DNA of 64,000 nucleotides from the NCBI RefSeq assembly GCF_052324685.1, contig NC_135218.1, positions 22,899,851-22,963,850 of the forward strand, given 5' to 3'. Position 1 is the stretch's first letter; every line of letters starts with the position of its first letter. The DNA comes from Brachyhypopomus gauderio. Lineage: Eukaryota > Chordata > Actinopteri > Gymnotiformes > Hypopomidae. The position numbers were made by a program, and so were the translations under genes. This document shows, in pieces, positions 2,515-46,303 of this stretch. Under the pieces are notes generated by a model that searched no databases, was not told where the DNA came from, and saw only the letters and a list, made by a program, of their open reading frames with translations.

Positions 2515-4563
<2,049 letters not shown>

Positions 4564-4933: not shown

Positions 4934-5007
4934 ATTTTGTCAATTGTGATTTTTTTTCACTGCAATCGAAATTTGTCCTCCGCTTTTTACCCATCTGTGC
5001 AGTTAGA

Positions 5008-5079
<72 letters not shown>

Positions 5080-5262
5080 GATTACTGGGGGGCTGTGGAT
5101 CACACGTGCCCAGAGCAGAGGGCAGCCCTAGCCTGGCGCCCGGGGAGCAGTTGGGGTTAGGTGCCTTGCTCAAGGGCACTTCAGTCATGGCCTCAGGTCA
5201 GGGAATCGAACCCACGACCCACTGGTCGCAAGACCAGTTCCCTAAGACAGGACCATGACTGA
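4934..5262 (-). mobile_element. tRNA-derived SINE with internal (CA)n
   Basis: Read on the minus strand it has a tRNA-like head with a B box (GGTTCGATTCC at about 5200), a body containing GCCCTTGAGCAAGGC, a (TG)n tract and a tail ending in GACAAATTTCGATTG and CACAATTGACAAA. This head/body/tail arrangement is that of SINEs I associate with otophysan fishes. The head is the same family as the SINE copy near 14.4 kb. Confidence 0.75.
5010..5074. repeat. (CA)n microsatellite inside the SINE
   Basis: About 32 uninterrupted CA units between the SINE body and its tail. The open frames across it (His-Thr repeats) are not coding. Confidence 0.95.
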
Positions 5263-5320
5263 CCCATTACAGACCACTTCATTCTCCACTTGTTTTCACA
5301 ATAACTTCTATAATGTACAT

Positions 5321-5772
5321 TGTCACGTGCGGCTACGCCCCCTCTCGTAGCTGTCACTCTGGGTTCCCTCATGTCCGTGTACCCTGCCTGTTTGTCCCGC
5401 CCTGCTCGTTTGTCTTCGTGTTTCCTTGTTTGTTGCCACGCCCCTGTGTCATTGTCATCACCTGTCCCTAGTTTAGTCCTGTGTATAAAAGCCCCTGTGT
5501 CTCCCTTGTCGAGTATTTTTGATTCCTTGTTTGATTGTGTCTGTGTTGATCACTATACCTGACCGTTGATTGTTCCTGCCTTTTTTTGATCCAGTGTCTG
5601 TACTCGTGTCCCCTGTCTTGGTAATGCCTGTTTTTGCATGTTATTCGGACTGCCCTCCCGTTATCGACCCGGACTGGTTATCCGACGACGAGTATGGAAT
5701 GTCCTGCAATAAATCTCGCTCCTCTCAGCGGTTGTGTCCGTCTCCTCGCTCCGTGGCGCAAACCACGTTACA
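5321..5772 (+). mobile_element. Solo LTR of a retrotransposon, TSD TACAT
   Basis: A 452-bp unit starting TGTCACG and ending CGTTACA, flanked by identical 5-bp target duplications TACAT at 5316-5320 and 5773-5777. It contains a TATA box (TATAAAAG at 5484) and a poly(A) signal (AATAAA at 5708), the normal LTR layout on the plus strand. No internal retroelement genes or second LTR are present, so it is a solo LTR left by recombination. Gypsy-type is my best guess for the family, from general resemblance to fish Gypsy LTRs. Confidence 0.8.
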
Positions 5773-5777
5773 TACAT

Positions 5778-6540
5778 CTGATTCTTCAAACCACTCCCAC
5801 AATGTTTAAACACGGAATATTTGATTATGTAAATATATAATTATGTAGGACTAAACTGTTTGGTTTGCATATTTTCCTTTTGCAATCACTATATGGCTTC
5901 TGCTCAAGACTTTAGGTAATTTGACCTTACTATGTTAAATTGCTTTACATTTAAAAGTATTTTAGTTTAACTTCCAGCTTATTTAATAAATATCTTCATT
6001 ATAAATCATACAAAGCCTAAATGTTAATTCTACAACTTCATATTTGGTGAGACCATAGATATGTAAATGCAATGTATGCTTAATGCTGATTTGAAGGCTA
6101 AAGGTGGTCACATCAGGCATTGAGATTTCACTTTACTCACTTTGTATGTTGTCAAAAAAAAATTGAAAGAATTTACTTGCATTGCAGTATACTTTCCACA
6201 CACTACCAACTGAAGTTAAAGCATTCTTTGACATGTCAAGATGCATATGTGAAGTTTTGTATTTTTGCAAACCTAGACCTGCAGCTAACCCAAGAAACCT
6301 CAATATGCCATTCTCCTATATTAAAGTATGATCATACCTTGCTGAGAAGATGGATTCATTTTGTACATTTGTCCTGGGCCATTTTAATATGAGCATTTAT
6401 TCACAACAATATTCTTGCAGTGGTAAAGGCATCTAAACTGACCATTCTAAAAACACTAGCAGGTAAAGGTCAATCACACACACCTTGCAAAACCAGGAGG
6501 TTGCAAACCCTTAGTTTGGATGTTGTGCCTTCTCAACCAG
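5778..6540. other. AT-rich spacer with no recognised feature
   Basis: Only short non-conserved open frames are present. I see no splice-linked exons, RNA gene or repeat family here. Confidence 0.5.
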
Positions 6541-6582
6541 TTTGAAAACAGAACCAAATCAGAGACAGCAAGTGTAGTTGGT

Positions 6583-6588
6583 TTTATT
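6583..6588 (-). terminator. Poly(A) signal of the secreted repeat-protein gene
   Basis: AATAAA on the minus strand about 205 bases past the stop codon at 6793, giving a compact 3' UTR. Confidence 0.6.
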
Positions 6589-6792
6589 TAGATCACAACC
6601 AGAATCGATCCATCCAGCACCTCAAGACTGCATCAAACCCTCAAGTCCCATAATCCTGATCCCACCCAATGGAGTAGCTGCTGAAAACCCCTTTGGGCGA
6701 TTCATGGATGGAGGATGTCCGACCTGCTGGGCTTCACTGGTTGAGCATTACAGTGTGGGATTCAGGAGGAACATGATCTTCAGCATCTGGCA

Positions 6793-8204
6793 TCAGGCAG
6801 TCTGTGCTGAAGTACCTTTGGAATGCAAGAGGTCGTATTGGCCTTTTTGTCCAGAGGGATGGCTGGAGGTCACATGAGAACCCCACAGCTGGGATTGGGC
6901 AGTCTGTCCTGAAGGGTGGTAGGGGCCAGAGGAATGGCCTTTGTGCATATCCTGGGTATGTGGGTGTCCAGGAAACCTGTGCCTTTTATGAGCATCATCC
7001 CAATCGGTCTGGGGGTAGGTGGTAGGGACACCAGAACCCCACAACTGGGTTTGAGAATGTTCCCAAGGGCGGTACAGCCCGGAGTGCTGGCCTTTGTGCA
7101 TATCGTGGGAATACGGAGGTCCACGGAACCCGTGTTTTTTACGTGCATCATCACCGTTGAACAGGTAGCTGGTGGTGGGCACACCAGAACCCCACATCTC
7201 AGAATGGCGGCTAGATGGCTGCCATTTGCCTTCAACCCAAGGAGGGTGCCTCCTGCTGCTTTTTTGAGGATCCCTGGCTGAACCCACACCGAGGTTCTCA
7301 CTAGCCAGAGAAGAGAGGCTCGATTTCATCTGGGGTAGAAAAGCTGGGGCCTTACTTCGTGGCCTGCTGTGGAAAGGACGGCCATGTTGTGGGCCTTGAG
7401 GGTGAGGATGGGACAGACCACGATGAGGAGGACGTGTTGACTGGCCTGGAGATGGAACCCTGTAGGGTCCCTGATGGCCTAGACCAGACTGGACAGATTC
7501 CCTGGGCACCCAGACACCAGAGGAACCCTGGTATAAATGCCCTTGCTCAAAAAGACTACTGGACAACTCAGGGGTTTCTAGTGCAACATTAGGTTTAAAG
7601 CTCCAGGTTTCAACAGAACCCAGATGGTGGGTTTCAGATACATCTCCAGGGTCATATTGGACAACAGTCCGGTAAGGTCCTGCAGATTCACTTCCAGTTA
7701 CAACCTCTGAGAAACCCTGTTGGCTGCTGGAAGCCCAGTTTGACTGATCATCCTCCCCGAATTTCATATCTTGCTCAGAGACCACAGAGCTACTTTCCAT
7801 GGCTACAACACTAGAACTAAAGTCTTCTTCCTCAGGCTGATAACTAGGGTAGTTGACTTTTTTAGGCCAAGCCACAGAATCCCATTTGACTACAGCATAT
7901 CAATAAGGAGCAGGTTTTGTATTCCACATGTGGAAAGAGGGTGCAGGGGTTGAACAGAAACAAGGGAAAGAGTTATTATTTAAACTCTGAGCAAGCACAA
8001 AGCATCAATGTGTGTAGTCCAATCCAACTAGTTTTTTACCGTATCGTCCCCCTGCATCTTTCACCAGTAATACTGCACTGAGAAGAAACCAAAACCTACG
8101 AGACAAAAAAGAGCATTTACTCAATTAATCCACCATCACATTTAAATAAGTAAACACAACAAGTGACTCCTGCCACATGGATACCTTCTATACCTCCACA
8201 TCAT
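6793..8204 (-). CDS. Unidentified secreted repeat-containing protein, about 390 residues
   Basis: Three coding exons on the minus strand: 8204-8185 (start MMWRYR), 8095-8040 and 7889-6793. All splice signals are GT-AG, the phases agree, and the total is divisible by three. Exon 2 encodes RFWFLLSAVLLVKDAGG, completing a signal peptide, so secretion is inferred. The mature chain begins near RYVKWDSVAWPKKVNYPSY, continues through an acidic/Ser-rich part and then a His/Pro/Gly-rich part. It ends in two and a half tandem repeats of about 51 residues (roughly 257-307, 308-359, 360-390) sharing LWGSGVPTT, DDAxKxHxFxG and DMHKG. No cysteine-rich or enzyme domain is seen. I do not recognise the family. 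Human has no gene between C21orf58 and PCNT that I know of, so it may be fish-specific. A second copy of exon 1 lies upstream. Confidence 0.65.
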
Positions 8205-8314
8205 AGATACAGATGGGATACTCCAGAACACAACTTCAGACAGCCCTTCCTTTACTCTTTAAGAACCACAGACCACGATAGTTTCTCTGTCTACCTGCAT
8301 TCCCTTTAAGCCTC
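8143..8314. repeat. Direct repeat copy A, containing exon 1 of the secreted gene
   Basis: A 172-bp segment identical, as far as I can read, to 8758-8929. It contains the start codons (8204 and 8201), the donor of coding exon 1 and the sequence upstream, all on the minus strand. Confidence 0.95.
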
Positions 8315-8757
8315 AAAAACTCAATGAAAATGAAAAACAGCAAAACTCTGCAGAAGCACGTACTTCACTCAAAATTCTTTGTTTTTGCCTCAAAAGCTAA
8401 TTTTTAGGTCAGTCAATTTATTAGTGCCATATCTAGTCTGTGTACCACTGCCTATGAACAAGGCAGTCAAAATACTTAGTCATGTTGTCAGTGCAACTAT
8501 AAGTCAGTCAGTGCAGACTGTAAGTATATTCTAATGGAAACTAGCCAAGCTTTTGATTTAAAGAATGCTGCACGTTCTGTAGTATATCAAATACATGGTA
8601 CACACATACAAACTTACATGTAATACAAAGTTACACATGACTGTACATGTGAGACTTATAGCAAGAAATTGGACTGGAATCAAATTTGTACAACAATCTT
8701 GTTTGAATATATTGTTCACACTGTAATTTGTTGACAAACAAATCTGATTGAAATTAA

Positions 8758-8929
8758 TAAATAAGTAAACACAACAAGTGACTCCTGCCACATGGATACC
8801 TTCTATACCTCCACATCATAGATACAGATGGGATACTCCAGAACACAACTTCAGACAGCCCTTCCTTTACTCTTTAAGAACCACAGACCACGATAGTTTC
8901 TCTGTCTACCTGCATTCCCTTTAAGCCTC
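8758..8929. repeat. Direct repeat copy B, second exon-1 copy
   Basis: An exact 172-bp copy of 8143-8314 at an offset of 615 bp. It preserves the two start codons and the donor, so it can act as an alternative first exon for the secreted gene. The 443 bp between the copies are not duplicated. Confidence 0.95.
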
Positions 8930-8960
8930 TAATAATTTACCTGATTAGAATCAGCTGTTC

Positions 8961-9084
8961 AAATTCTTTTCTACCAATTATAGGAACCAATGCATGAATA
9001 GTGAGAATGATGACAGGAACCAATGAAAAACTGTGAGGAGTTGGTGATGTTAAACAGCAACATTAACATTGTTTAGTACCACAG
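8961..9084. repeat. Diverged direct repeat, left copy
   Basis: Shares CCAATTATAGGAA, GAATAGTGAGAATGATGACA and GGAACCAATGAAAAACTG with 10516-10652, in the same order. The two copies flank the foldback element. Confidence 0.85.
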
Positions 9085-9404
9085 GCTACATTTATTGTAG
9101 ATGTATTATTTAGATCCAATTCCATTTGGGGGGTTTGGTGTGTTCATTTGTATGATTGTCACATGGGTGGAGTTGAGGTGCAAATTTTACTTCCCTCTGT
9201 GTTTGCAGAACTTTTAATTCAATGAAATGTCCTTTTCTACCTTCATCATCCAAATGTTAGTTGTGATATTATATCATATATTTCTATATATTTTTTCTTT
9301 TTGCACATCTCGATTACATTTTTAGAAATTATTATAGAATGCAGAATCATTTGTTGATTGGGTGATGTGCAATTATACATTTTGTATAGCTGGTATGACA
9401 CCAA

Positions 9405-10469
9405 TATGGAGTCAAATTAGGGTCTTTAATGGTGACGAAAAAAAAATAATATCGCAAATATAAGATTAGCATTTTGCATTTTACGTTCCTAATTTGTTTC
9501 TGCAATACTTTCCCTCTTTTGCGTTTCTTTCTTTTCTTTGCGTTTCACATTTTATGTTGCTGCTTTTTTTTGCAATACTTTCTCCCTTTTGCGTTTCTTT
9601 CTTTTGTTTGCGCGTCACTGCTTTTCTTTGCGTCTCGCATTTTACGTTCATAATTTTTTTTTGCGCTTCTCTTTTTTCTTTGCTCCGGTTTTACCCTCTG
9701 TGTGGGGGCCGGGAAAGAGGCGTGGCCAAGAGCGAAAGGCGTGCTGTGAACGTTCAGCGTCAGTTCAGCTTCCTTCCACTCGCTGAACTGAACTGCTGCT
9801 GCAGCGCATCTGGTGTTAAAGGAAGAGAGAGGTCGGGTGTGTGCGAGGTGGTGGCGCATTTCAGGGCATTGTTTTTATTCGCTCAGGTTTTCAAAAGATC
9901 ATTTCAAACCGACCTCAGTAAAATGTTAATAATAATAATAATAATATATATATTTTAAACGAAGTTTTAAAAGGGCACTTTCGTTGATAAAGGGCAGAGT
10001 TGGTGGTGCTTTAGCACCTGATGTCTATGTCTGCACGCATATACCTGTGGTCCAGCTGGGCGACCGTTTGCCATGATACCAGTAACCAAATTGCCTGTGT
10101 GGTTCAACTGATGACGCTGAACGTTCACAGCACGCCTTTTGCTCTTGGCCACGCCTCTTTCCCCGCCCCCACACAGAGGGTAAAAACGGAGCAAAGAAAA
10201 GAGAGAAGCGCAAAAAAAAATTATGAACGTAAAATGCGAGACGCAAAGAAAAGCAGTGACGCGCAAACAAAAGAAAGAAACGCAAAAGGGAGAAAGTATT
10301 GCAAAAAAAAGCAGCAACATAAAATGTGAAACGCAAAGAAAAGAAAGAAACGCAAAAGAGGGAAAGTATTGCAGAAACAAATTAGGAACGTAAAATGCAA
10401 AATGCTAATCTTATATTTGCGATATTATTATTTTTTCGTCACCATTAAAGACCCTAATTTGACTCCATA
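9405..10469. mobile_element. Foldback element with 358-bp inverted arms
   Basis: The left arm 9405-9762 and right arm 10112-10469 are inverted copies of equal length, with only a few mismatches per 85 bases where compared. The spacer is 9763-10111. The ends read TATGGAGTCAAATTAGGG inward. The direct repeat CACCAA at 9399-9404 and 10470-10475 is a 6-bp target duplication, so this is an inserted transposable element. Arms consist largely of T-rich DNA with repeated TTTGCGTTTC-like words. The long hydrophobic open frames in both arms are products of that composition, and no transposase is present. The superfamily is not assigned. Confidence 0.8.
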
Positions 10470-10515
10470 CACCAAACCACTCACATCTCTCAAACCTGTC
10501 AATCTGTCATTGCTC

Positions 10516-10652
10516 AAAATTATTTTCTGCCAATTATAGGAAGCAACTAGTGAATAGTGAGAATGATGACAGGAACCAATGAAAAACTGAGAGGACACTC
10601 AAAAGTATTTGGTGATGTTAAACAATAACAGGAATATTGTTTAGTACCACAG
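10516..10652. repeat. Diverged direct repeat, right copy
   Basis: Partner of 8961-9084, with several substitutions and a small insertion before TTTGGTGATGTTAAACA. Confidence 0.85.
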
Positions 10653-10839
10653 AAATAATCGCTAAGTCTTGTTTCCATGCACTACAGTTAAGTGAAGAAC
10701 CTTTAGATTGCGTAGGCCGCCGTGGTTAGGAGAGACATTAAAACAAGCAAAATGGTTTGATGCATCATTTATTCAAAAAAACATTTTCAATCCCCCTTTA
10801 ATAGAGAATGTCAACATTTCAGTTAAGGCTCGCGACACA

Positions 10840-11384
10840 ACAACCAGCGTTGCTATTGGTCGAGTCGATTTTCCCGGGTTTCTGCGCGCGCTGTACTATA
10901 GGCGAGGTGGGCGTCACAGTTGCTAAGGGCACATTTTCAACCAGTAGGAAACGAGATTGCCAGCCGAAAACTTGTGAAGGAATCAACGGTTTCCCAAGCT
11001 GTACAAAAACACGTTACACATAAATTAGAAGATATTTATCAAACATAATACTTACAAATATTTACATTAACCTACTACTAGTCATATATTCGAGGGTCGA
11101 GTTCTGCAGGCTTTTGATGGCACAGGTGCCTGTGCGCTGTGAAAATAATTCATTGGCTACAATTCTGTTTTCTGTTGTTTTCATTGGTCCGTTCACAGAG
11201 AGAGCCTCATTAGGGCGGGGCTTAAGACGCTTCGCGGCCATGTTGAAATTTGTATTGACAGTTATTTCATAGCAGATCTTCTAAACTTGGAGACGCGCCT
11301 GCGATTTTTGCAGTTTAAACCTTCAGACTACGTAGTGTTCTCTTGAAATTTATCCTGTCTCTATGAAATTATTTATTTCAAGAG
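10840..11384 (+). promoter_or_regulatory. pcnt: Candidate pcnt promoter and 5' UTR
   Basis: The region upstream of the pcnt start is locally CpG-rich. It contains an inverted CCAAT box (CTATTGG at 10853), two X-box-like half sites (GTTGCTATTGG near 10849 and CAGTTGCTAAGG near 10917) and a GC box (GGGCGGGG near 11213). RFX-type X-boxes are typical of ciliary and centrosomal genes, but half sites are common by chance. The transcription start is not determined. It probably lies between 11200 and 11300. Confidence 0.4.
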
Positions 11385-14300
11385 ATGGACCAAGATGAAA
11401 GGCAAAGGAAAGTAGAGGCCGGAAGAGCAAAGGTATGTAAAATGACGATACTAAGTCTAGCTAGCTAAGTTAGCTGTTGATTAGCCACCTCCGCTTGCTA
11501 ACCAAGTTAGTTGTTGCTAACTAGCTCGGCTAGCTTGCTAGCTAGTTTCATGCACTTAGTTACTAGTTAGTTACTTTTTGGTTTGTTTTACCCAAACCCA
11601 CGGGATCTGTGCCTGCTAGCCTTCCAAGCTGGCTCGTATTGACGTAAAAGTTGTTGAAGTTAGCTTGTCTGACTTTATTCTGAAGATCATGAACCATAAG
11701 TTGATAATTCCGTATATAATAACGACTACGAGCTAACGTGTTGCCCAGCTAGCAGAACCTAGCGTGATAGTTTCTCTATTCGTTGTGCAGTAGCCAACTT
11801 GGTCAAACCTCAAACCTCTAGCTAGCCAACTAACTAGTTAGCATAGCTAGCTAAAATGTCTGTAACAGCCAGGTTAGGTTAGTTTACGAATGTTGCGTGA
11901 CCAAATGATTTGTGGAGTAGTTAAACTGGCTGATAACAAGTTTAGTGAATTAAGCTTAAGTCTGCTCCACCGAGCATCACGTTGGGTCTGTCGGGTTGGA
12001 AGATCTAAAGTGCCACTTTCTTTGGAAGAAGTTGTCTAGGATAAACTGACAAGATTGCTGATATAACCTGAGAATACTAATATCAAACTACAGGAGACAA
12101 TTTCATGTACCGCTATTTTAGGAATATGAGTGAAGCTGAGCTACATCGTATGGAAGGGGCTTCATATCGTGTATGTTTAGAACAAGCATCATTTGACATT
12201 AAAATGATGGATTGTAATCTTTGCTTTCTTACTGTCGTGAGTCATGGATTTTCAGTCCTATAGATGGCACACTACCGCGTTTAAATATTTGATACTGAGG
12301 AATGTGATTGTACACAGATTCTAAGCCCTTGGTTATGCAGATAAATTACATGTCTGTTATCCATTTGATTCCCCTGTTTCATATCTCCAAAGGTAATTAT
12401 TCTTATTTTGGAAGTGCCTAAACGTGATCTTCAGTAATGTAATTCAAAATGGTGGTCCACGTAAGTTCAGTGAAACTGGATATTATCAAAGTGCCCTACT
12501 AAGAATTGTTATCAAGCAGATGCCACGTGGGCAATTTCATAAGAAATTCAAAACATGTGGACCTGTTAAACTAATTAACATGAGTGTTGTGCATGTAAGA
12601 GTATTCTGTAGGTGCCATGTTTTGCAATCTCTTTAAACAGTATCCAGGTTCAGTGGATATATAGCCAATACTGTATGACTGACCCAGTGTCTGTGGTTCA
12701 TACTCTGTTGAGTCTCCTGTTGCGTCCCTGTTTTATTTAAATAACAGTGGGTGTGAATTAAACTGACTTTGCGCATGTTTGCTGCAAAAAGGGCACATTA
12801 AATCATACAGAACTGTTTGCTATTCGGGTCAGTAGTATGAAAGGTGTGAGGAGCTGGTTTGGGCCGTGGCCGTCGTGTGTGTGTCTGTGGTGCGGTGATT
12901 TGCACCATGCTTTCTTCTGAATTTGTGTGCCATCTCATCAGGTTCTCGTGGCATCTGTAAGGGAAGGTTGATGTAAGGACCTGAAAGTGTTCTGGGCATC
13001 TTATGCAGGCCCAGAGAAACTGAAGATCTTGAATCACTTTTTATTTGGCCTTTTCAGCTCCAATAAGAATCATATGAATATCCATGTTTGTTCCCATTTT
13101 GCTACCAACTCATCTGAGGTGTTTATTTTGCCATATTTCACGTGCATTTTGTGAAATGGAACGAGGGTCAAAGGGCAGTGCCACCATCTTGACGTCCACG
13201 TACCCGTTGACCTTTGGCAGCCTAGTGGTGTGTGGCTGCTGCCTGGTCCTCGTGTCCCTCTACTCCCTGGTGCTCACGTCTCTCTCCTTCTCCCTGGTGC
13301 TCATGTCTTTCTCCCTCTCCTCCTCCTCCTCCTCCCTGATGCTCACGTCTCCCTCCTCCTCCTCCCTGGTCCTCGTGTCCCTCTCCTCTTCCTCCTCCTC
13401 CTCCTCCTCCTCCCTGGTGCTCACGTCTCTCTCCTCCTCCCTGGTCCTCGTGTCTCTCTCCTCTTCCTCCTCCTCCTGGTTCTCACATCCTCCTCCTCCT
13501 GGTCCTCGTGTCTCTCTCCTCTTCCTCCTCCTCCTGGTTCTCACATCCTCCTCCTCCTTGTCCTCGTGTCTCTCTCCTGGTCCTCGTGTCTCTCTCCTCC
13601 TCCTCTTCCTCCTCCTCCTGTGCTGCAGCTTGCACACTACAGAAAGCAGCGAGCAAAAGGCGACGGTGCCGTCGTCCAAAAAAAGACGTCAAAGAGGAAG
13701 GACCAGACTGGCCAGGGGAACCGGCTGCCTGCACAGGAGCGCCACCTAGAGGAGAGACAAAATGACCACTCCCACGGATACGACGACAAACCAGTCTCTG
13801 AGGTTCATTGTAATCCTAATGTGAGATTGTACATAATCCTTCCTCAGCAAGCCCCCTGTATTCCACTAACGCATGCTCCGTGCCATCAGCTCCATCTGGA
13901 TCTACCGTTGTAGACACGACAGTGACATCACACAACTGTTCACTCAGCCACGCAGTCTTCTGTGTACCAGACACACAGATCACCTCAGCTGTTCTGTAGG
14001 ACACCTCCCCCATCTACCCTGTGATCTCCTCACCCACGTCCATTCACTAACCCTTTTAGCCCCTCCCCATAATGCCATCACGGACATCCTTAGCTTACAG
14101 CTTCTAAAACCACAATCTGTAAGCAATGGCGGACATGTCTCCACGTCCCTTAACACCCATCTCTACTGGCCTTAAGTACGCTTACCGCCCACGTCAGATA
14201 CCAAGTCAGATTCATCCTTTTGAACACACCACATCTTCAAATGGGTCTGTTAACCCTGTCTGAGTACACCACTATATCTGTTAACCCTGTCTGAGTACAC

Positions 14301-17300
14301 CACTATATCTGTTATGTAATATCAGTCATGGCCTGGTGGTTAGGGAACTGGTCTTGTGACCGGAGGGTCGTGGGTTCGATTCCCAGACCTGAAGCCATGA
14401 CTGAGGTGCCCCTGAGCAAGGCCCTTTACCCTCAATTGCTCACTTGTATAAAAATGAGATAAAAATGTAAGTCGCTCTGGATAAAGGCGTACACCACCAT
14501 ATCTGGCATCACTGTAGTTAAAGCAACACACCTTTGCACCTTAAAAAAAACATTATGTACACTTATCAATTTTCTGATGTTGTGCATGTGTGTAACTTGC
14601 TCCTCATGCATAAACCAAACCTAATTTGTCTGTTCATATCACTACTGGGTAAAGAGTTTACCTCTGCTTACTAGAGAATAGCCATGCTAAGGAGCATGAT
14701 TGTCTGTATGTAGGTCTACAGAGTGCCTGTGACACGGTACCATCTCTCTTTTAAGTCAGGAAACCTTCTCCACATGTCTGAGGGAGGGGTGGAGATCTCC
14801 ACGTGTCTGAGGGAGGGGTGGAGGAACTACTGTCCTGGTAATGCAAGCATAGGTGAACACGTGTATGTTTGTGATCAACCCTGTAGGAGTCATTGCAACC
14901 TGATGTTATCTGCGATGATCCAGCATCCTGGCAGAATAATGAGGAGACGGACCGGACGGGGGCCCAGGAGAAGAGCTCTGTTTCTGAGGACAAGGTTGCG
15001 TCAGAGCACCCTGCTGAGACAGTGGACCTTCTTGGAGAAATGTTAGTTACGCACACTAGCAAAGAGCAATTGAAGGTAGGCTTATTGACAAATCTGCTGC
15101 CTTAATGAGTCCCCAGAATAATCATTCACTATACCTGACTGATGAAGACATTTATCCTCTATGTCAGATTTCTCTTGATGGGGCTTGTAGCTTGTCCTCT
15201 CTGTTAAAAAAATGAAGTAGTCACTTCTTTGTTCAAACTGGCATCCATATTTGAGGGGAAATTGTATTTTATGTATTCAGGCATATTTATGTAGATGAGA
15301 TTTAGACTCTTTTTCTATTAGTATTTTTTTAGATGTTTTTATGACGTGTAGTGTATATTTATGATTACATTAGATGTTCTTATCCTCTGCTTTACAGCAA
15401 CTACAGGCTGCGGTGGAGAAGCGGAATGAGATCATCTCACAGCTGAGTGTCAACCTGCAGGCGGCGCTAATGAGCAGAGACCAAGTGCAGCTAGAGGCCC
15501 AGCAGCTGACCACTCAGATACAAGAGCTACAGCAGCAGCTGCTTCAGGTGTGTTTCAGATACCAAAAGGATCAGGGTTAGGATCAGGATTACGGGTTAGG
15601 ATCAGGATTAGGATTACGGATTAGGATCAGGATTACGGGTTAGGATCGGGATCAGGATTGCGGGTTGGGATCAGGATTAGGATCAAGGTTACGATTAGAG
15701 TTAGGATCAAGATTAGGATTACGGGTTAGGATTACGGGTTAGGGTCAGTATTAGGGTTAGTGTTACTGCTGGCCTCTGCCTGCCTATACCTAAGACCCCC
15801 TCTAAAATGACAATATCCTTTCGTAATCTTTCTGCTGTTGATACTCTCGCCTTCTCCAAACATCTCAAATCTTCTTTATTCCCTTCGATTTGTAACATAT
15901 CTAACGTTGAGGATGCTGTCTCTTTGTATAATGATTCTGTCTCTGCCATCCTCAATACACTCGCTCCACTTAAGACGAGGACTGTACCATCCACGCACAC
16001 TTCTCCCTGGTTCACCCCTGAACTACACACACTGAAATCAACCGGCAGGCGCCTTGAGCGTCTCTATAAAAAAACAGGTCTTCATGTTCACGCTATGGCC
16101 TTTGCTGAACATATGCTCACCTACAGATCTGCACTACAATCTGCCCGTTCTCTGTACTACTCCAACCTTATACACGGCTCCAGACATGACCCTAAACATC
16201 TCTTCTCTATTGTCAACAAAATTTCTTGCCCTCCTACTCACACAGTCTTATCCTCTCCTGAAATCTGTACTTCTTTTCTCAACCATTTCCAAGATAAAAT
16301 TACTTCCATTAACAAAGGTTTTCCTAGCTCACCCTCCCCTGACTTCTCTTTCTCCCCTCCCAGTCCTATTAACACTCTGTTTTCTCATTTCTCTCCGGTT
16401 TCTGTCAGCAACACTGCCGAAATAATTTCTAAGTCCAAATCCTCATCCAGTCAACTTGACCCCGCCCCAACTTCACTCCTAAAGCTCTGTCTCTCGGACA
16501 TAAGTACTCCTATAACACATATCATTAATCTCTCTCTCTCCACTGGTTATGTTCCCTGTTCTCTTAAAACGGCTGCTATTACTCCTGTTACAGGGTACCC
16601 GCGGGTCCTTAAAAAGTCTTAAAATGTCTTAAATTTAGTTTTCCATATTCAAGGCCTAAAAATGTCTTAAAATGTCTGGAATTTTATGAGGGGAGGCATT
16701 AAATTATTATAAGTGTGTGTTGTTCAGATGTTCTGGCGCGATGTGAACTTTGCCGAATCTAGCGCTAATGCAGAAAATAACCGCTCCAGGGTCCTAGTGC
16801 TAGATTCCTAGCGTTGGAGTATACGGCCTCAACAACGTCAACAATTTTTGTTCGCCAAAACCCCCCCTTCAAAAATTCTCGTTCGCCACCCCCCCCCCCG
16901 TCAACTATGTGGAACACACCTGCATCCCCAGTAATAGTATTATTTTTTTCTTGTGAGAGGTATTAAAAAGGTCTTAAAAGTCATTGAATTTGAGATTAAA
17001 AAATGTGCAGATACCCTGTGTTATTAAAAAACCTTCTCTTGACAGTTCTGATCTACAATCCTACAGACCGATTTCCAATCTACCTTTTATTTCTAAAGTT
17101 CTTGAGAGAGCTGTCGCCATACAGTTACAGGCTTTTCTCACCACCAACAATCTCTTTGAGATATTCCAGTCTGGATTTCGTCCCTTACACAGCACTGAGA
17201 CTGCTCTTCTCAGTGTTTTGAATAACCTGCTCCTGTCCTCTGACTCTGGGCGTGCATCTGTCATTCTTCTCCTTGATTTAACTGCTGCTTTTGATACAGT

Positions 17301-20300
17301 TAATCACAAAATACTCCTCTCACGTCTCTCCAGTTTTGGTCTGTCCGGCACTGTGCTCTCTTGGTTCTCATCCTACCTTACTAACAGATCTCAGTTTGTC
17401 AGTATAGGAAAGCACAAATCCATTTCTGTCCCAGTCACCCAGGGAGTACCACAGGGTTCTGTTCTTGGTCCCCTACTATTCATTACATACTTACTTCCTC
17501 TTGGTAACATTAATCACTCCTTCAACATCAACTATCACTTTTACGCGGATGACACACAGCTGTATCTGGATCTCCACCCTTCTGACTCTTTCCCTCCTAC
17601 CACACTGCTGTCCTGCATTCAGGAGATAACTCACTGGTTAAACAATAACTTCCTCAAACTAAATCCTACTAAAACTGAGTTCATGATCATCGGCACCAAG
17701 TCAGCCATCTCTGCCCTCTCCAACTGTAGTCTATCTGTTGATAACATCCAGGTTGCCCAGTCTTCTGTTGTGCGTAACCTAGGCGTTTCATTTGACTCCT
17801 CTCTCACTTTCATCCCACACATAAACTCTATCCGTAAATCTGCTTTTTTCCATCTCCGCAAAATTGCCAGGCTCCACCCCATACTTTCACTAAAAGATGC
17901 CGAAACCCTGGTACATGCATTTATCACTTCCAGACTAGATTACTGTAACTCCCTGCTTTATGGTCTACCTGCTAAATCACTTCGCCCCCTACAACAGATA
18001 CAAAATTCTGCAGCCAGAGTTCTAATGACCACAAAGAAATCTGCACACATCACTCCTATCCTCCATCAGTTACACTGGCTTCCTATCTCTGAACGCATTC
18101 ACTATAAAATCCTACTCCTAACATTCAAATCTCTGCATGGTCTTGCACCCTCCTATCTCTCCAACCTTCTCCACCTTCATACCTCATCACGTCAGCTCAG
18201 GTCCTCTAACCTAGGTTTGCTCTCTGTCCCACGACACAGACTCTCTACTATGGGTGGCAGATCATTCAGTGTTGCTGCCCCCACCCTCTGGAATTCGTTA
18301 CCTCCCTCTATTCGCTCCTCTGACTCTCTCTCTACTTTCAAAACTCAACTCAAGACTTTCCTCTTTTCTCAATATTTCCGCTCTTTCTAAGCCCTGTATT
18401 TTTCCCCTTTCACTTGTGTACAGCGACCTTGGGTTTGAGAAAGGCGCTATATAAAATAAACATATATAGTGTTAGGATTAGGATCAAGGTTACTTTTAGG
18501 GTTAGGATCAGGAGCTATGGGTGAATATTATGGGAGTCTGCTGGAGCTCATTGAGTATGTGGAGGAAGATGTCATGGCTTCATTTCTCCAGGAGTACACG
18601 TACTGTCGTAGTGACCATTATATGCAGGTTGCTTTGAATAATGGTGCTTGCCAGATTCTGAAAATGTAAATGCTCACCAGTTTCTTGCCATTAATGATTC
18701 CTGAATGGGACAAACCTCCTCTTCCTCAGGCCAAAGAGTACCTGCGGAGTAAAAGCCTGGGATGGCTGGGTGCGTCTCAAGCCCAGCAGAACCAGTTGTG
18801 GCTGCAGGCCGAGGGCTCGCAGCAGGTACGGCGCTCACCTGTTTGATCAGATGTCTACGCTTATTTGTCAGCCTGCATGCTTTGCAGTTTGTGATTTTGT
18901 GATCAATAATGTGTCTCTCTTGGCTCAGAAGGAAACGGAGATCGCAGCTCTCCATCAGAAGCTGGGTGTCCTGCAGGATTCTCTTTCTCAGTTCCAGACT
19001 GCCTTTGCATCGAACAGTGTGGAGCAGGACCGGTTGAACTCGCACCACGTTGAGCCCCCGCCGGGTGGTGATGGGGTCCTCAACTCGGACACTGGTCCTC
19101 TCCTTCAGAAACTGAGAACAGAGTTGGACGAAGAGAGACAGAACCGCAGGAGAGCCCTAGAGCTTGCCGAGGGCTTGCAGAAAACCGTGGCGGTTCTGGA
19201 GGGGGAGAGGGAAGCGTTGGAGGCCCAGCTGGAGGACACCAGGGCGGCGCTGGAGAGGGCGGAGGAGCAGGCTCGTGAAGCCCAGCGATACAAGGCGGAG
19301 AAGGAGGAGCTCAACCGGGATGTAGCGCGGCTGGACGGCCTGGTCCAGGAGCTCCAGAGCCGGCTCAGGGAGGAGGAGGAAACGGGCAAACGTCTGTGCT
19401 CCAAATATGAATCCGAAATCGGCAACTTTGAGCTCCGGCTCCAGACCCTGGAGGAAGAGAGGGAGTTGAACGTGGCCCAGTTGGCGGAGTCCCACGAGGC
19501 TGCGCTCAGACGCCTGCGGGAGGAGCACTCTGTGGAGGTCCGGCGTATTCAAGAGCTCCTGGACAGAGCCCAGCAGGGGAACCACCTGCTCGATCAGCAC
19601 GACGTCCCCAAAGAGGATGGGGCAAGCGTGAACGGGGTCGTAGAGTCCAGCGAGCCTCACGACGAAGAGACGGCCATCGAGGGCTCCGTTCAAAGCGAGC
19701 CCGGTGTGGACGACTCCGTTACAGATGTCCCGAATGACTTGATGGAGCGGTACTTGGCGTTGGCAGTGCAGCATGAGACCTCACAGGTGGAGCAGAGTCT
19801 AGATGAGCATAGCCTCTTGGAGAGCTCCAAGGCCTCCAAGTTTGAGATGGACAGCGAATTTATGTTTGAGTCGAGGTCATCTGACCACCGGGACCCTGCC
19901 AGTGATCACAGCGACGCAGCGTTGCTAATGCTGCCGGACATGGCAGAAGCTCACTCTCCCAAGCTGGGTGAGATGTCCTTCAGCCATGCCCAGTGGCAAA
20001 GCTTCACTTCTTCCTCTCGAGAGTTGAACGAAAGCAGCGCGGACGTCATGGACCTTGGTAAGGAGCTTCTGATCCAGCAGTGCAGAGACCTGACGGAACA
20101 GCTGGAGCAGAAGGAGAGACAGCTGGAGGTTCTCGAAGAGGAGGTGCAACGCTCGGCCGAGGAGTTGGAGGAGGCACGGGAGCGTTGGAGCAAAGCTTCA
20201 GAGGAGCTCGAGGAGGCAAAATGGGAGCTGGAGACGGAACGAGAGAAGAGACTTCAGTGTGAGGAGATCATCAGTCAGAAAACGCAGGAGCAGGACAACC

Positions 20301-43768: not shown

Positions 43769-46303
43769 CAGAGGGCACCACAGTTGTGATGGAGATGTCC
43801 TTGCACTCAAGCCAAACCTTTTTGTTTGTTTGTTTACCCACACAGCTGCAGCTGGAGGTCCTCCACGAGCGTGACCAGCAGTGTGTCCGACAGCTGCAGC
43901 ACACCCTGGCCGACCTGGAGCAGCAGGAGAAAAGGCTGGCCTCGGAACGCACGCGAAGAGCCCCGCCCACCTCAGAGGAGCCCCGCCTCAGGGGACACGC
44001 CCACACGCAGGTGGGCTGCTCACTGGTGAAATGCAGTGTTTTGGTGGGGCAGGATCCTCTTGAATGGTAATGAGAGTGTGTGTGTGTGTGTGTGTTGTAG
44101 GAGGACTCCTCGCTAGTGGAGCGCGTGTTGAAGGAGAACACCGAGCTGTCAGAACGTCTGGCTGCTGTGAGTGAGGAGAAGGTTTCTCTCAAACACTCAC
44201 TGTCCTGTCTTGAGAGAGATCTGCTCAACTTCAAACGCACTGAGCAGGTACAGATCTAATGCTCTTCCTGAAAACCTGTAGGAGGTGTGTGTGTGTGTGT
44301 GTGTGTGTCTGCTCTCAACTAAGGGGAGCAAATTTCCTTTCCATAGAGGAAATTGAGTTAGAACATTGTGGACATTGGTGTTGTGTGCAGGTGGACTCGT
44401 CAGCCTGGCAGAAGGAGAAGGTGGCGTTGCAGTCGGCTCTGCTCAGGGCCGAGACGGACCTCGCCAGGGCCACGGCCGGCATCGAGAACAGGCCCGTCCC
44501 CGACCTGTCCGGCACCAAGGTGAGTCCCCCGGTCCGCGTGACCCTCCACTTCCGTCAGGACTCTGAGTTGAAGCTCACCTCCGTGTCTCCCCCCCCGGCG
44601 CAGATGCAGCGGCTGTACGAGAAGTACCTGCGTGCGGAGAGCTACAGGAAGTCTCTGGCCTATCAGAAGCGCTACCTGCTCCTGCTGTTGGGGGGGTTCC
44701 AGGACTGCGAGCAAGCCACGCTCGCCCTGATTGCCCGCATGGGGGTGCAGCCCTCACTCGGCCCCGCCCACACCGCCACGCCCCTCAGCCGCTTCCGCAG
44801 CGCCGTCCGAGCCCTCGTGGCCATCTCCAGGTAGGACGGCCGAACGTCGTTCTCCACGGAGACGTACGGTAGCGTTGTTGCCGCGGGTGCCACCTTTGAC
44901 CTCTTCCTCGTTTTCCTCCCCAGACTGAAGTTCCTCACCCGGAAGTGGCAGAGGGCGACACGGAAGATCGCGGGGGGTGGAGGGGGGGTGAGCGGTGCAG
45001 GTAACGGCCCGTGTGGCGTTCACCCGTAACGCTCGTTAACGTGAAAACCTCCGAAACTGGATTTAAACACAGTTTTAATCACGGCTCTGGTGTACGACGC
45101 GTTTTGCCTGTGTTCCCCAGCTCTGAGGACAGAAGCTCTGAAACCCCAGTATTCTGGACCTGCTTTCAACTCTCCGCCCACCCGTGACCACGTCCTCACA
45201 CAGAGGGGCGTGGCTTCGCCCCTGGTGACCACTCGTGAACATGCCCAGGCACAGAGAGGCGTGGTCTCGCCTCCGGGAGCCCCGGTCAAATCTCCATTCA
45301 GGCTGCATAACGGGTGAGCCGGGCCTGACCAGGGTCGCCTTGCTGGTCCCCTCAGATGCACCAGGGGAGTTGTTGATGTGTAGCTGACCCCTGACCCCGT
45401 GTGGTTCTCAGGGGAAGCCCCAACAGTGTCCCGGTCCTGCCTGAGCGCACGCTCACACCCTCCCAGGAACAGGAGCGCTCCCTGGCCGAATACATCCAGC
45501 ATCTGGAGGGCGTGCAGCAGCGTCTGGGTGCCATTCGGCCTGGTAAGGGGAGGAATCCTTCAGCTTCTCACTAAATGCACTTAACACATAAATTTAACAC
45601 CTTTTTTCCTTTATAGTGTGGGCAGTTGTGTACGTTTTCTGTACAACTAGGTGTCCCTTTCGGTCTCTCCTTGTACTGACCCCTAGTGGACATTTCAGTG
45701 TAAATCACTTTGAAGTCCCGTGTTTGGCTTGAGGGACCCTGGTACATATAAATGCATGTCCGTGTATTCAAGCACCAGCTCACGTTAATCAATTAACTCG
45801 AAAATTTGCACTCGAGTTGCTTTAAGCAATATGAGTCCTCGTTACGTTCCTGGAGTAAATGTGACTGACCACATGAGACGGTGGTGACGTGTGTGGCGAG
45901 CGTCCTGAAGTCCCTCACCCGCCTCCGTCCCGCAGTGTCCCGCGAGCAGCGCAGACGCTCCCTCCCCGATATGATGGGCTTTCGGCAGAAATGGCTGCTC
46001 GAGAATAGAACCTGGCTGTATCTGAGTTGCTTGTCGCCGGGTTACTGGCCTTTTGGTGAGTGACGGCCGGGCCGAGCTCCACCCCAAACCCTCCTCCACC
46101 TGCTCCTTCACGCCGAGGCAGAGTGCTCCATCTTATGCTGTCAGTCACGTTTCGCTCCCTCCGGCCCGGTGGCACTTGGGTGTAGGTGCGAGGGGCACTG
46201 GGTGGTCACTACACACGCCACGTACAGCACTGTGAAGGTTTCTCTCATCTTCTCACCAGGTTCTCCATCTGTGCACGCTTACACCAGGAAATCTGACCGA
46301 TGA
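11385..46303 (+). CDS. pcnt: Pericentrin, about 54 coding exons, roughly 4,300 residues
   Basis: Giant coiled-coil scaffold of the pericentriolar material that anchors gamma-tubulin complexes and PKA at centrosomes. Exons: 11385-11432, 13629-13802, 14887-15075, 15398-15547, 18730-18825, 18929-20878, 21009-21196, 21279-21374, 21475-21618, 21831-22074, 22195-22274, 22356-22587, 22690-22790, 22928-23039, 23138-23369, 23576-23654, 23760-23976, 24057-24298, 24395-24762, 24913-25750, 26288-26464, 26628-26780, 27518-27652, 28733-28893, 29022-29203, 29285-29508, 29596-29758, 32957-33148, 33731-33963, 34186-34305, 34839-35075, 35286-35453, 35599-35751, 35862-36023, 36562-37524, 38475-38645, 38755-39228, 39353-39455, 39595-39767, 39867-40061, 40200-40367, 40735-40921, 42447-42669, 42762-42912, 43061-43723, 43846-44010, 44101-44247, 44391-44519, 44604-44830, 44924-45000, 45121-45313, 45412-45542, 45936-46055 (probably optional), 46260-46303. 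Phases agree throughout, apart from a one-base uncertainty at 21009. Diagnostic matches to human PCNT as I remember it: start [32 protein letters not shown], the SRVEDxExLKQ block, [18 protein letters not shown], the PACT domain and [17 protein letters not shown]. Human PCNT is about 3,336 residues, so this model is longer. C21orf58 lies alongside, as in human. Confidence 0.9.
11433..13248. other. pcnt: pcnt intron 1, no further feature
   Basis: Begins with the donor gtatgt after the 16-codon first exon. Its first 500 bases contain many TTAGCTAG-type short words. I see no exon, RNA gene or clear repeat family before the pyrimidine tract at 13.25 kb. Confidence 0.5.
13249..13620. repeat. pcnt: Pyrimidine-rich (TCC) minisatellite beside the exon 2 acceptor
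   Basis: About 370 bases of variant units such as CTGGTCCTCGTGTCTCTCTC and runs of TCC. It ends eight bases before pcnt exon 2 (13629). It is open in several frames on both strands, giving Ser/Leu- or Glu/Arg-rich products that are composition artefacts. Confidence 0.9.
14249..14312. repeat. 31-bp direct duplication
   Basis: Two adjacent copies of a unit beginning TCTGTTAACCCTGTCTGAGT, in pcnt intron 2. Confidence 0.8.
14327..14497 (+). mobile_element. tRNA-derived SINE in pcnt intron 2
   Basis: Plus-strand copy of the same head family as 4934-5262: GGTTAGGGAACTGGTC, B box GGGTTCGATTCC, CCTGAGCAAGGCCC, then a tail GTAAGTCGCTCTGGATAA. That 3' tail is shared by many fish SINEs and L2-type LINEs, which suggests L2-driven mobilisation. 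The tail differs from the one on the 5-kb copy, so they may be two subfamilies. Confidence 0.75.
15576..15770 (+). repeat. Telomere-like degenerate repeat
   Basis: Irregular array of TTAGGATCAGGATTACGGG-type units, including some TTAGGGTTAGG words. It resumes at 18470-18512 on the far side of the LINE, so the LINE appears to have inserted into it. It is too irregular to be a real telomeric array. Confidence 0.8.
15780..18468 (+). mobile_element. L2-clade LINE, 5'-truncated, in pcnt intron 4
   Basis: Encodes a reverse transcriptase with the L2/CR1-type motifs [35 protein letters not shown] and FYADDTQL (the catalytic YADD), then LGVSFDSSL and a C terminus [15 protein letters not shown]. The endonuclease is missing. 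The 3' end GCGACCTTGGGTTTGAGAAA followed by GGCGCTATATAAA is typical of fish L2. The frame is open before 16590 and after 17018. The intervening 428-bp insertion plus its 5-bp duplication accounts exactly for the frame offset, so the host copy has no other visible break. A possible 8-bp target duplication TAGTGTTA lies at both ends. Coding capacity is that of a transposon, not of a host gene. Confidence 0.9.
16591..17018. mobile_element. 428-bp non-autonomous DNA element nested in the L2 LINE
   Basis: Terminal inverted repeats CAGGGTAC at the left and GTACCCTG-like (ATACCCTG) at the right, flanked by 5-bp duplications TGTTA at 16586-16590 and 17019-17023. The inner ends contain TCCTTAAAAAGTCTTAAAA and its rough inverse. 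No protein is encoded. This end sequence is a familiar fish MITE type that I would place provisionally in hAT, although 5 bp is shorter than the usual 8-bp hAT duplication. Confidence 0.8.
18929..20878 (+). other. pcnt: pcnt giant exon 6 (650 codons)
   Basis: The largest pcnt exon, an exact multiple of three, acceptor ctcag and donor gtttgg. It encodes long Glu/Leu/Gln-rich heptad coiled coil interrupted near the middle by an acidic low-complexity linker (about residues 220-370 of the exon). The order of coiled coil, acidic linker and coiled coil suggests a flexible hinge. Confidence 0.85.
22081..22113. repeat. pcnt: (TG)n microsatellite
   Basis: Starts a few bases after the donor at 22074 in a short 120-base intron. 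Confidence 0.95.
22801..22829. repeat. pcnt: Poly(C) tract
   Basis: About 29 consecutive C residues starting ten bases after the exon 13 donor at 22790. Length may be unreliable in assembly. Confidence 0.9.
25103..25425 (+). repeat. pcnt: Four 26-residue coding tandem repeats in pcnt exon 20
   Basis: A 78-bp unit occurs four times in frame, encoding variants of [19 protein letters not shown] plus HKAELEI. Copies differ by a few substitutions. 26 is not a multiple of seven, so each repeat needs a stutter or skip to stay in coiled-coil register. Confidence 0.95.
26036..26076. repeat. pcnt: (GTGTT)n pentanucleotide repeat
   Basis: Eight units in pcnt intron 20. Confidence 0.9.
26234..26286. 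repeat. pcnt: (TG)n microsatellite abutting the exon 21 acceptor
   Basis: About 26 TG units running into TGTAG. Exon 21 starts at 26288, so the tract occupies the place of the polypyrimidine tract. Confidence 0.95.
26776..27062. repeat. pcnt: Minisatellite that repeats a pcnt exon/intron junction
   Basis: About nine units of 30-36 bases, each containing AAAGGTGGGAGTATGTTTATGA. The first unit begins at the end of exon 22 (ATAAAG|gtacgtttatga), so later units carry AAAG|GTGGGAGT donor-like copies. Confidence 0.9.
27185..27510. repeat. pcnt: 30-bp minisatellite before exon 23
   Basis: About eleven units of CCCTCTGACCCGTGTCCCTG plus CGACACGTGA with drift. Open frames exist on both strands only because the unit is a multiple of three without stops. 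It ends a few bases before the exon 23 acceptor (27517). Confidence 0.95.
27661..27777. repeat. pcnt: (CA)n and poly(C) mixed tract
   Basis: Alternating CA and C runs directly after the exon 23 donor at 27652. Confidence 0.9.
28480..28533. repeat. pcnt: (CA)n microsatellite
   Basis: About 27 CA units in pcnt intron 23. A shorter (TG)n follows at 28660-28689, before exon 24. Confidence 0.95.
30000..32948 (+). mobile_element. Degenerate L2-clade LINE in pcnt intron 27
   Basis: Retains an endonuclease fragment ([11 protein letters not shown] and LLTETWQL near 30600-30700), then parts of the [40 protein letters not shown], a changed active site (Tyr-Ala-Asn-Asp instead of YADD), and the C-terminal [18 protein letters not shown]. 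Several frameshifts and deletions break the frame, so it is dead. The 3' end TAAAGCGTCCTTGGGTACTT is followed by an (ATT)n tail. That tail ends only a few bases before the exon 28 acceptor (32956). The 5' limit is uncertain. Confidence 0.85.
33660..33728. repeat. pcnt: (TG)n plus shared intronic segment, copy 1
   Basis: The (TG)n tract is followed by GTTCTACCTCTGGTTGTGGA and GTCTCACCTCTCT, which recur after a (TG)n tract at 40453-40492. Here the segment forms the acceptor region of exon 29 (33731). Confidence 0.85.
33981..34024. repeat. pcnt: (TG)n microsatellite
   Basis: About 22 TG units starting about 17 bases after the exon 29 donor at 33963. Confidence 0.95.
34431..34451 (+). other. pcnt: Possible 21-nt pcnt microexon
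   Basis: ACTGAAG|ATTGAGGACTTGGTACTTCAG|gtatgt has an AG acceptor, a strong donor and seven codons (IEDLVLQ) in frame between exons 30 and 31. It is unsupported beyond its signals, and the acceptor has no good pyrimidine tract. Confidence 0.2.
34655..34786. repeat. pcnt: 34-bp tandem repeat, three to four copies
   Basis: Units containing CTTCACCTCATTGGCTACCG and CAGTAGAAC in pcnt intron 30. Confidence 0.9.
35130..35284. repeat. pcnt: (CT)n tract at the exon 32 acceptor
   Basis: About 150 bases of CT with interspersed CTGT, continuing into the acceptor CTCTAG before exon 32 (35286). Confidence 0.95.
36200..36558. repeat. pcnt: Minisatellite in pcnt intron 34
   Basis: Interleaved units of GTGTTGATCCTGGTCT and GTGTTGGTCCTGGTCTCCTC. 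The array runs to the exon 35 acceptor at 36561. Confidence 0.95.
36562..37524 (+). other. pcnt: pcnt exon 35 (321 codons)
   Basis: Second-largest pcnt exon, in phase at both ends. It encodes [12 protein letters not shown], then [19 protein letters not shown], a segment conserved between PCNT and AKAP9, followed by Arg/Glu-rich coiled coil. It is very GC-rich, and because of that long proline- or serine-rich open frames occur in the other frames and strand. Confidence 0.9.
38040..38345. repeat. Interspersed repeat fragment, family unassigned
   Basis: Contains GGGCTGATATAGCCGTGCCA and TTTGATTGGTCCCTGCG near 38272-38310. The same words recur at 40936-40980 after exon 42. Probably two ends of one transposon family. 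Confidence 0.5.
40375..40454. repeat. pcnt: (TG)n microsatellite plus shared segment, copy 2
   Basis: About 40 TG units directly after the exon 41 donor at 40367, followed by the segment shared with 33680-33728. Confidence 0.95.
40637..40732. repeat. pcnt: (TATC)n and (CT)n tract at the exon 42 acceptor
   Basis: CTAT repeats followed by about 35 CT units ending in CCAG at 40734, immediately before exon 42. Confidence 0.95.
40922..40927 (+). promoter_or_regulatory. pcnt: GC-type 5' splice site of pcnt intron 42
   Basis: Exon 42 must end in phase 1 to join exon 43 (GTT GAA GAG at 42447). The only junction that does so is CGAG|gcaggt, a GC donor. Using the nearby GT (after GCAG) would create a stop codon. 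Confidence 0.6.
41002..42324. mobile_element. hAT-like non-autonomous element in pcnt intron 42
   Basis: A 1,323-bp element with inverted ends TAGTGCTGGGCGGTAT and ATACCGCCCAGCACTA. Perfect 8-bp target duplications CTCTGCAT lie at 40994-41001 and 42325-42332. The 8-bp duplication points to hAT. It contains AT-rich DNA and a (TG)n tract at 42087-42157, with no transposase frame. Confidence 0.85.
42980..43058. repeat. pcnt: (TG)n microsatellite abutting the exon 45 acceptor
   Basis: About 39 TG units running into TGTGCAG. Exon 45 starts at 43061. Confidence 0.95.
44604..45000 (+). other. pcnt: PACT domain of pericentrin (exons 49-50)
   Basis: Encodes [40 protein letters not shown], then [20 protein letters not shown] and [11 protein letters not shown]. 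The PACT domain is the centrosome-targeting, calmodulin-binding C-terminal module shared by pericentrin and AKAP9. The following exons give [20 protein letters not shown], which matches the PCNT tail better than the AKAP9 tail. Confidence 0.95.
45936..46055 (+). other. pcnt: Probable cassette exon in the pcnt C terminus
   Basis: 120 nt, acceptor cgcag and donor gtgagt, phase 1 at both ends. Skipping it joins RLGAIRP to [14 protein letters not shown] and stop, a tail of similar length to human PCNT. Inclusion adds about 40 residues ([13 protein letters not shown] onward). Reading through the donor stops at once (TGA at 46061). Confidence 0.5.

Follow-up and report, generated by a model that had tools for sequence, protein, structure and literature searches.

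A multigene family of putatively secreted repeat proteins in Brachyhypopomus gauderio, with a dispersed copy between C21orf58 and pcnt and a possible role in the egg coat

Hyosophorin, a repeat glycoprotein of the cortical alveoli of fish, is built on a species-specific repeat with glycosylation sites. The SCPP secretory phosphoproteins are encoded by genes with phase-0 introns and a non-coding exon 1. In structural polymers such as silks and glues, loose sequence goes together with conserved secretion and low complexity. A "fibroin-like substance" of the carp fertilization envelope was reportedly described by Chang and Huang in 2002, to go by the title of that work. In the passages of the literature drawn on here, carp egg adhesiveness is attributed mainly to protein components, particularly glycoproteins, and to cortical alveolus material (PMC12383683), and fish egg adhesiveness is credited to glycoproteins, glycosaminoglycans, ZP proteins and protease inhibitors (PMC12383683, PMC9513835). 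The word "uncharacterized" is absent from the main texts of both papers.

Here we describe a gene that resembles these systems in part. It lies at 6793..8204 on the minus strand of a 64-kb stretch of DNA (the window; 64,000 nucleotides), between C21orf58 and pcnt. The initial annotation had named these neighbors, and profile matches to the DUF4587 and PACT domains confirm them. Related sequences were sought in the fish's own genome (796.5 Mb in 840 contigs, labeled C4, C8, C10, C13, C14, etc.). The features discussed below are, in window positions:

2769-2939, minus strand: DUF4587 domain, marking C21orf58 (profile match, E 4.5e-18)
6163..9360, minus strand: main stretch matching family units at other genomic loci, among the matches listed for window 5000-12000; not collinear throughout
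6583..6588, minus strand: polyadenylation signal AATAAA, about 205 nt past the stop
6793..7889, minus strand: exon 3, encoding the mature chain and its 51-residue repeats (two and a half units); TGA stop at 6795-6793 (open frame and homologs)
6817..6819, minus strand: lost stop, AAA where aligned paralog DNA has TAA, adding an 8-residue extension
8040..8095, minus strand: exon 2, 56 nt, bulk of the signal peptide (56 nt in all 22 models and in the C4 and C14c copies)
8143..8317, minus strand: proximal copy of a 175-nt duplication that covers exon 1, its 5' flank and the beginning of intron 1, 99% identical to the distal copy
8185..8204, minus strand: exon 1, proximal copy, where the initial annotation began the gene; intron 1 of 89 nt; without the family promoter upstream
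8758..8932, minus strand: distal copy of the duplication (99%); C10 homology runs upstream to 9358 among the matches listed
8800..8819, minus strand: exon 1, distal copy, the same 20 nt with donor GTATCC; intron 1 would be 704 nt
8919..8924, minus strand: TATA-like TTAAAG, 105 nt ahead of the distal ATG
8952..8957, minus strand: E-box CAGCTG, 33 nt ahead of the TATA-like box; CAGGTG in five other representatives
8975..8980, minus strand: NOBOX-element-like (NBE-like) TAATTG, 23 nt ahead of the E-box
44247-44831, plus strand: PACT domain, marking pericentrin (pcnt) (profile match, E 3.1e-22)

Joining 8204-8185, 8095-8040 and 7889-6793 gives an open frame of 390 residues followed by TGA, with introns of 89 nt and 150 nt, both GT-AG, in phases 2 and 1. 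Together with exon sizes that are kept in relatives, the open frame and introns confirm the three-exon repeat-protein gene first proposed for this locus. The acceptor of exon 3 is forced by an in-frame stop just upstream of 7899; in other lineages this acceptor has probably shifted. The second donor is weaker in the window copy (GTAAAA) than in relatives (GTAAGA, GTAAGT or GTAAGG). At the position of the lost stop, the aligned DNA of C13, C36 and C10:14580352 reads TAA. The start assigned at 8204 is probably wrong, since the family promoter lies upstream of the distal exon 1 only, and the working exon 1 is, from the sequence, probably that at 8819-8800; the encoded protein is the same from either start. 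Most of the DNA between the two copies (8348-8762) matches sequence upstream of C13 copies among the matches listed, so the 5' end has been rearranged. Because homology spans about 6163-9360, the window copy came with flanking DNA and introns and not via mRNA. Like the SCPP genes, this gene specifies a disordered secreted chain and places most of the signal peptide in exon 2. Unlike them, it has an exon 1 that codes (20 nt) and introns in phases 2 and 1, and it thus departs from the SCPP gene plan.

The window gene is, on sequence comparison, one dispersed copy of a genome-wide multigene family. Its exon 3 protein gave 95 matches in its own genome, and queries with C14 and C4 relatives added the array on C4, another locus on C14 and fragments on C114, C96 and C42. 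The C10 array holds 12 intact genes at a spacing of about 4.4 kb, with 10 of the 12 proteins distinct, and a thirteenth intact gene lies at C10:14590851; all 13 proteins are 528-724 aa long. Nine places on C4 have open frames of 743-755 aa. Three copies were found on C14, a pair (775 and 1658 aa) and a third at C14:5.69 Mb (C14c). The latter locus and C114 have a 758-aa frame each, and C114 may be its second haplotype. The C36 copy encodes 371 aa and its end falls outside the family frame, and the C13 copies are frameshifted or cut; a 7-nt gap was noted early in exon 3 of C13. Intact frames thus number about 27 (13 on C10, nine on C4, the C14 pair, those at C14:5.69 Mb and on C114, and the window gene), a count for which only part of the C4 copies was read and C114 was read incompletely. 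Some of the near-identical copies within arrays may be products of assembly. Genome-wide, the exon 1 pattern ATGATGTGGNNGNNCAGAAGGTA is matched exactly at 30 sites, and at none when searched backward as a control; the window and C36 copies, like three of the four on C13, are at least one base off and are not among the 30.

Exon structure is, by sequence comparison, the strongest conserved feature of the family. An exon 1 pattern search of regions fetched from C8, C10, C13, C14 and C36 found 23 sites, all but one of which (C10:14588217) have an exon 2 partner; the two exon 1 copies of the window have one exon 2 in common. Every one of the 22 paired models has a 20-nt exon 1, a 56-nt exon 2 and GT-AG splice sites, with an intron 1 of 76, 89 or 90 nt, or of 704 nt from the distal exon 1 of the window. 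Exons of 20 and 56 nt with GT-AG sites also occur in two copies of the C4 array, an inverted C4 copy and C14c. The full set of family traits (a coding exon 1 of 20 nt, a 56-nt exon 2, phases 2 and 1, and a long single exon 3) was found in the window copy, in 20 other copies with an exon 2 and in the four C4 and C14c copies. The sizes of exons 1 and 2 persist at about 40% protein identity; C4 proteins are about 38% identical to the C14 pair over the N-terminal part. The junction 8185/8095 is supported by this exon comparison across family copies. In the first ~700-790 nt of exon 3, every gap run between the window copy and C10 (6/6), C36 (5/5) or C14a (10/10) is in frame, and in pairs that leave out the window copy 4/4, 9/11 and 6/10 gap runs are in frame. 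Within the repeats, C36 loses the frame. For the C14 pair, the start of exon 3 is a guess between two candidate acceptors about 20 codons apart. The original interpretation stood as regards a secreted three-exon repeat gene, its varying repeats and its location; the multigene family, the probable upstream start and possible decay had escaped it.

The proteins have a signal-like start, as previously proposed for the 390-residue model. Read by eye, the N-terminus MMWRYRRFWFLLSAVLLVKDAGGRY has an Arg-rich beginning and a hydrophobic core of about 11 residues, with a putative cleavage site that we take, from the -3/-1 rule, to follow AGG. Past residue 24 the window chain is 15.8% Ser, 9.8% Gly, 9.6% Pro and 7.1% His, and it contains no Cys and no N-glycosylation sequon. 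Both are likewise absent from the 13 C10 proteins, and one sequon each occurs in C14b and C36. The C4 and C14c chains are 22% Ser and 11.5-13% Gln, with very few Cys. Composition varies with lineage. The C10 and window chains are of a Ser/Gly/Pro/His type rich in Trp, those of the C14 pair of a His/Ser type, and those of C4 and C14:5.69 Mb of a Ser/Gln type. The N-terminal domain keeps its residues around SSSLFEQGxLxQGS between lineages. A single AlphaFold2 prediction, given a ten-member alignment, returned a mean pLDDT of 41.3, with none of 368 residues at 70 or above, and the family proteins are accordingly predicted to be intrinsically disordered.

The 51-residue repeat at the C-terminus of the window protein is visible both in the DNA (families D2 and D3) and in the protein, bearing out the two and a half units reported earlier. 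That these repeats vary, as had been suggested, is evident from the five to nine units (mostly 49 aa) in the 13 C10 genes and the nine and 26 units of 51-52 aa in the C14 pair. The two adjacent C14 genes (C14:12346741 and C14:12353171) are alike in their non-repeat part (dS 0.017) and have nine and 26 repeats, a length change between neighbors through repeat slippage. Hyosophorin is likewise a secreted tandem-repeat egg protein of variable repeat number; by description, its repeat unit and composition are different, and the window and C10 proteins have no N-glycosylation sequons. The silk-like, proteinaceous egg glue that we propose below would resemble the carp fibroin-like substance in its job, a comparison made by description only.

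Pfam searches with the window protein found no family, including the ZP domain (PF00100), and a PDB search with it returned only FGFR2 (E 0.16). Across the Pfam, NCBIfam and PDB sequence searches, with NCBIfam searched for window exon 3 only, the single match over the cut-off was to GYF_2 (PF14237). Three of 10 members scanned match this profile, at 18.1, 21.7 and 28.5 bits against a cut-off of 25.8 bits, and the one that exceeds it (C10:14590851) does so by summing over near-identical repeats. In these three members no single stretch passes, and the best one reaches over 21 of the 50 positions of the profile; we take the match to be probably due to chance. Scans of IMG/VR and of GTDB genomes and a DNA search of a phage collection, none of which is a fish collection, found no relatives. 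Literature searches with peptide strings found no matching paper, and the portions of papers seen in searches by topic contain no description of the family, which may still have been published.

ZP-domain proteins are the obvious comparison for a candidate egg protein. The family differs from them in having no ZP match, no Cys in the window and C10 chains and no predicted fold. It is like them in its genomic arrangement, as some ZP genes here also form regular tandem arrays with equal profile scores. The ZP profile has 145 matches in this genome, many of them outside regular arrays. Two ZP arrays lie at C9:13190957-13285346 (25 matches about 3.9 kb apart, 24 with the same score) and at C2:48353390-48403458 (nine at about 6.25 kb). 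Amplification of ZP genes in arrays fits a high demand for egg-coat protein. Other secreted gene classes likewise form arrays, which counts against reading the arrays of this family as a sign of an egg function.

Upstream of the family genes is an island of sequence that outlasts much of the coding similarity. We aligned it in eight copies from four tree clades (the window, C10, C36, the C14 pair, two C4 copies and C14:5.69 Mb). In order, it contains an NBE-like hexamer, TGAACAGGTGAT (the window has CAGCTG), TCAG and TTAAA. The NBE-like hexamer, E-box and TTAAA occur in all six representatives, with 33-35 nt from E-box to TTAAA and, from NBE to E-box, 30-34 nt in five representatives and 23 in the window. 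As the hexamer, the window, C10, C36 and C14a have TAATTG, C4 has TAATTA and C14:5.69 Mb has TAGTTG, the last of which we take to be an NBE variant. Inverted CCAAT boxes accompany these elements in five of the six (not in C4), and a GATA-like TTATCAG in three of the six. We dropped the absence of TTATCAG as a sign of decay in the window copy, since C4 and C14c also lack it. The composite is rare by chance: with the family site of the window masked and looser rules applied, 20,000 random pieces of 320 nt included none with the full set and 251 with an E-box and a TATA-like box, and among 20,000 random 230-nt pieces without masking 24 had the composite, that site included. The core string TGAACAGGTGATTNNNATCAG has 19 exact matches in 796 Mb (none for a backward control), and by coordinates every one of the 19 is placed upstream of a family gene, at most a few hundred bases away; the string misses the C4 array, the C14 pair and the window, each of which departs from it by at least one base.

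The sequence of the window copy itself leaves its fate in doubt. FastTree analysis of the N-terminal region places it with the C13 pseudogene (support 1.0) inside a clade with C10 and C36, and both the C14 pair and the grouping of C4 with C14:5.69 Mb fall apart from this clade. Between lineages, dN/dS in the non-repeat domain is 0.49-0.87 (near-identical pairs and the window-C13 pair left out). Fisher tests on rounded substitution counts gave p of 0.002 for C10-C14a, 0.014 for window-C14a, 0.013 for C10-C36, 0.026 for C36-C14a, 0.052 for window-C10 and 0.18 for window-C36. The dN/dS of about 0.6 to 0.7 between lineages, notably in C10-C14a and window-C14a, points to an old constraint. No purifying selection was detected between the window and C13 (4.8 synonymous and 33.2 nonsynonymous changes over 192 codons, dN/dS 2.2, p 0.16). 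When other paralogs are used to polarize the changes, the window branch receives one synonymous and 12 nonsynonymous, the C13 branch receives four and 19, and two stay unplaced; none of these numbers departs from neutral drift.

The window copy may therefore be dying or losing function, and we give only slightly less than an even chance to its being a relic, that is, a recently dispersed duplicate with an open frame and no useful protein, in a family that functions elsewhere. Such a fate is suggested by the neutral-like changes on its branch, the loss of the ancestral stop, the duplication of exon 1, the shortened distance from NBE to E-box (23 nt) and the frameshifted or cut state of its C13 sister copies. 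Against it stand the 390 open codons, the in-frame gaps over the part examined, splice sites that are all GT-AG and the full composite promoter at the distal exon 1. The intact frame is a weak argument, because dS to C13 is 0.036 and luck is not rare at that distance. The sequence itself shows a common three-exon plan, a signal-like peptide split between two very short exons, tandem amplification, variation in repeat number, predicted disorder and the shared promoter. The fuller reading, in which the window gene is a scattered copy from a large family of secreted, disordered repeat proteins with almost no Cys and a role in the egg, seems to us evenly poised.

For the family as a whole, we prefer the reading that its products are structural proteins made in the oocyte for an egg coat or egg glue, and we would assign it an even chance. 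The promoter resembles those of egg genes, so the family may belong to the egg coat or glue. CAGGTG E-boxes are not specific to oocytes. The composite was found in none of three ZP promoters of the same genome, for which we picked the ATGs ourselves, a result that counts against an oocyte role and leaves that role a reasoned guess, about one in two; two of these promoters have a CAGCTG E-box (CASSTG) about 150 nt before the ATG, a point of likeness, and the third has no CASSTG E-box. The egg-matrix role guessed at initially thus gains some support from the conserved NBE/E-box/TTAAA promoter and loses some from the ZP promoters. In the passages seen, E-boxes of FIGLA lie within 200 bp in mouse Zp promoters (PMC1906760), and NBEs are defined as TAATTG/A, the E-box CAGCTG occurs in Gdf9, and E-boxes and NBEs act in oocyte promoters (PMC3718783). 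By this description, and with TAGTTG taken as a variant, all six representatives have the E-box and NBE expected near the promoter of an oocyte gene, which would fit oocyte expression without proving it.

It is unlikely, in our view, that the family's secreted products belong instead to the matrix or mucus of the skin or some other epithelium. A secreted, disordered, Ser/Gly/His-rich and amplified product would be equally expected there, E-boxes are generally known to serve epithelial genes too, and the composite promoter is not common to the three ZP genes. What speaks for the egg is the narrow range of the NBE-like element across the six representatives, of which TAGTTG counts as an NBE variant, and TAATTG and TAATTA are both NBEs in passages of PMC3718783. 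It is very improbable that the protein is a precursor of short peptides cut at dibasic sites in each repeat: RKKHGF and HKRHRF occupy the same place in the two full repeats of the window protein, further dibasic sites lie at window residues 35 and 238 and C10 repeats mostly have KRH, but the window chain has no G-[KR]-[KR] amidation signal and neither C14 protein has a dibasic site after residue 25, so that such sites are not kept family-wide.

Under the egg-coat reading, growing oocytes would transcribe the family genes from the E-box/NBE/TATA-type promoter, and the proteins would be secreted into cortical alveoli or the egg envelope. The flexible chains, with His, Trp, Tyr and Arg as "stickers" and Gly, Ser, Gln and Pro as spacers, could associate or be cross-linked via Gln and Lys into an outer or adhesive egg coat resembling a silk or glue. 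Array amplification would supply dose and repeat slippage would set chain length. The window copy would be a single-copy offshoot, its nearest relative a decayed C13 array, that has kept its open frame, splice sites and promoter.

We tentatively suggest, at somewhat less than even confidence, that an unrecognized, silk-like family with fast turnover accounts for a large share of this fish's egg coat or glue, with at least two dozen genes on several chromosomes, mostly in arrays, under one private promoter of oocyte type, and that it evolves by amplification and repeat slippage and sheds orphan copies like that in the window. Egg stickiness and the build of the envelope vary between fish species. 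If the suggestion holds, a secreted multigene family of disordered, repeat-built proteins would be a concrete additional candidate for both, with array size and repeat number as measurable quantities. The window gene also illustrates how an apparently lone orphan may turn out to have strayed from an array family.

Several other elements were observed around these loci. The left flank of the C10 array (C10:14430001-14440000) holds a helicase gene that resembles dhx29 in its translation. In the window, a small extra piece of family upstream DNA at 10517-10652 is 84-94% identical to C13 and C10 units among the matches listed, and is perhaps the remnant of a second family unit. Positions 9470-9958 and 9967-10404 form a hairpin- or MITE-like inverted repeat with nearly identical translations on the plus and minus strands. 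An RVT_1 frame of a LINE-like element lies upstream of pcnt (16981-18387), and an ATG9 frame lies downstream of it on the minus strand (51192-51998).
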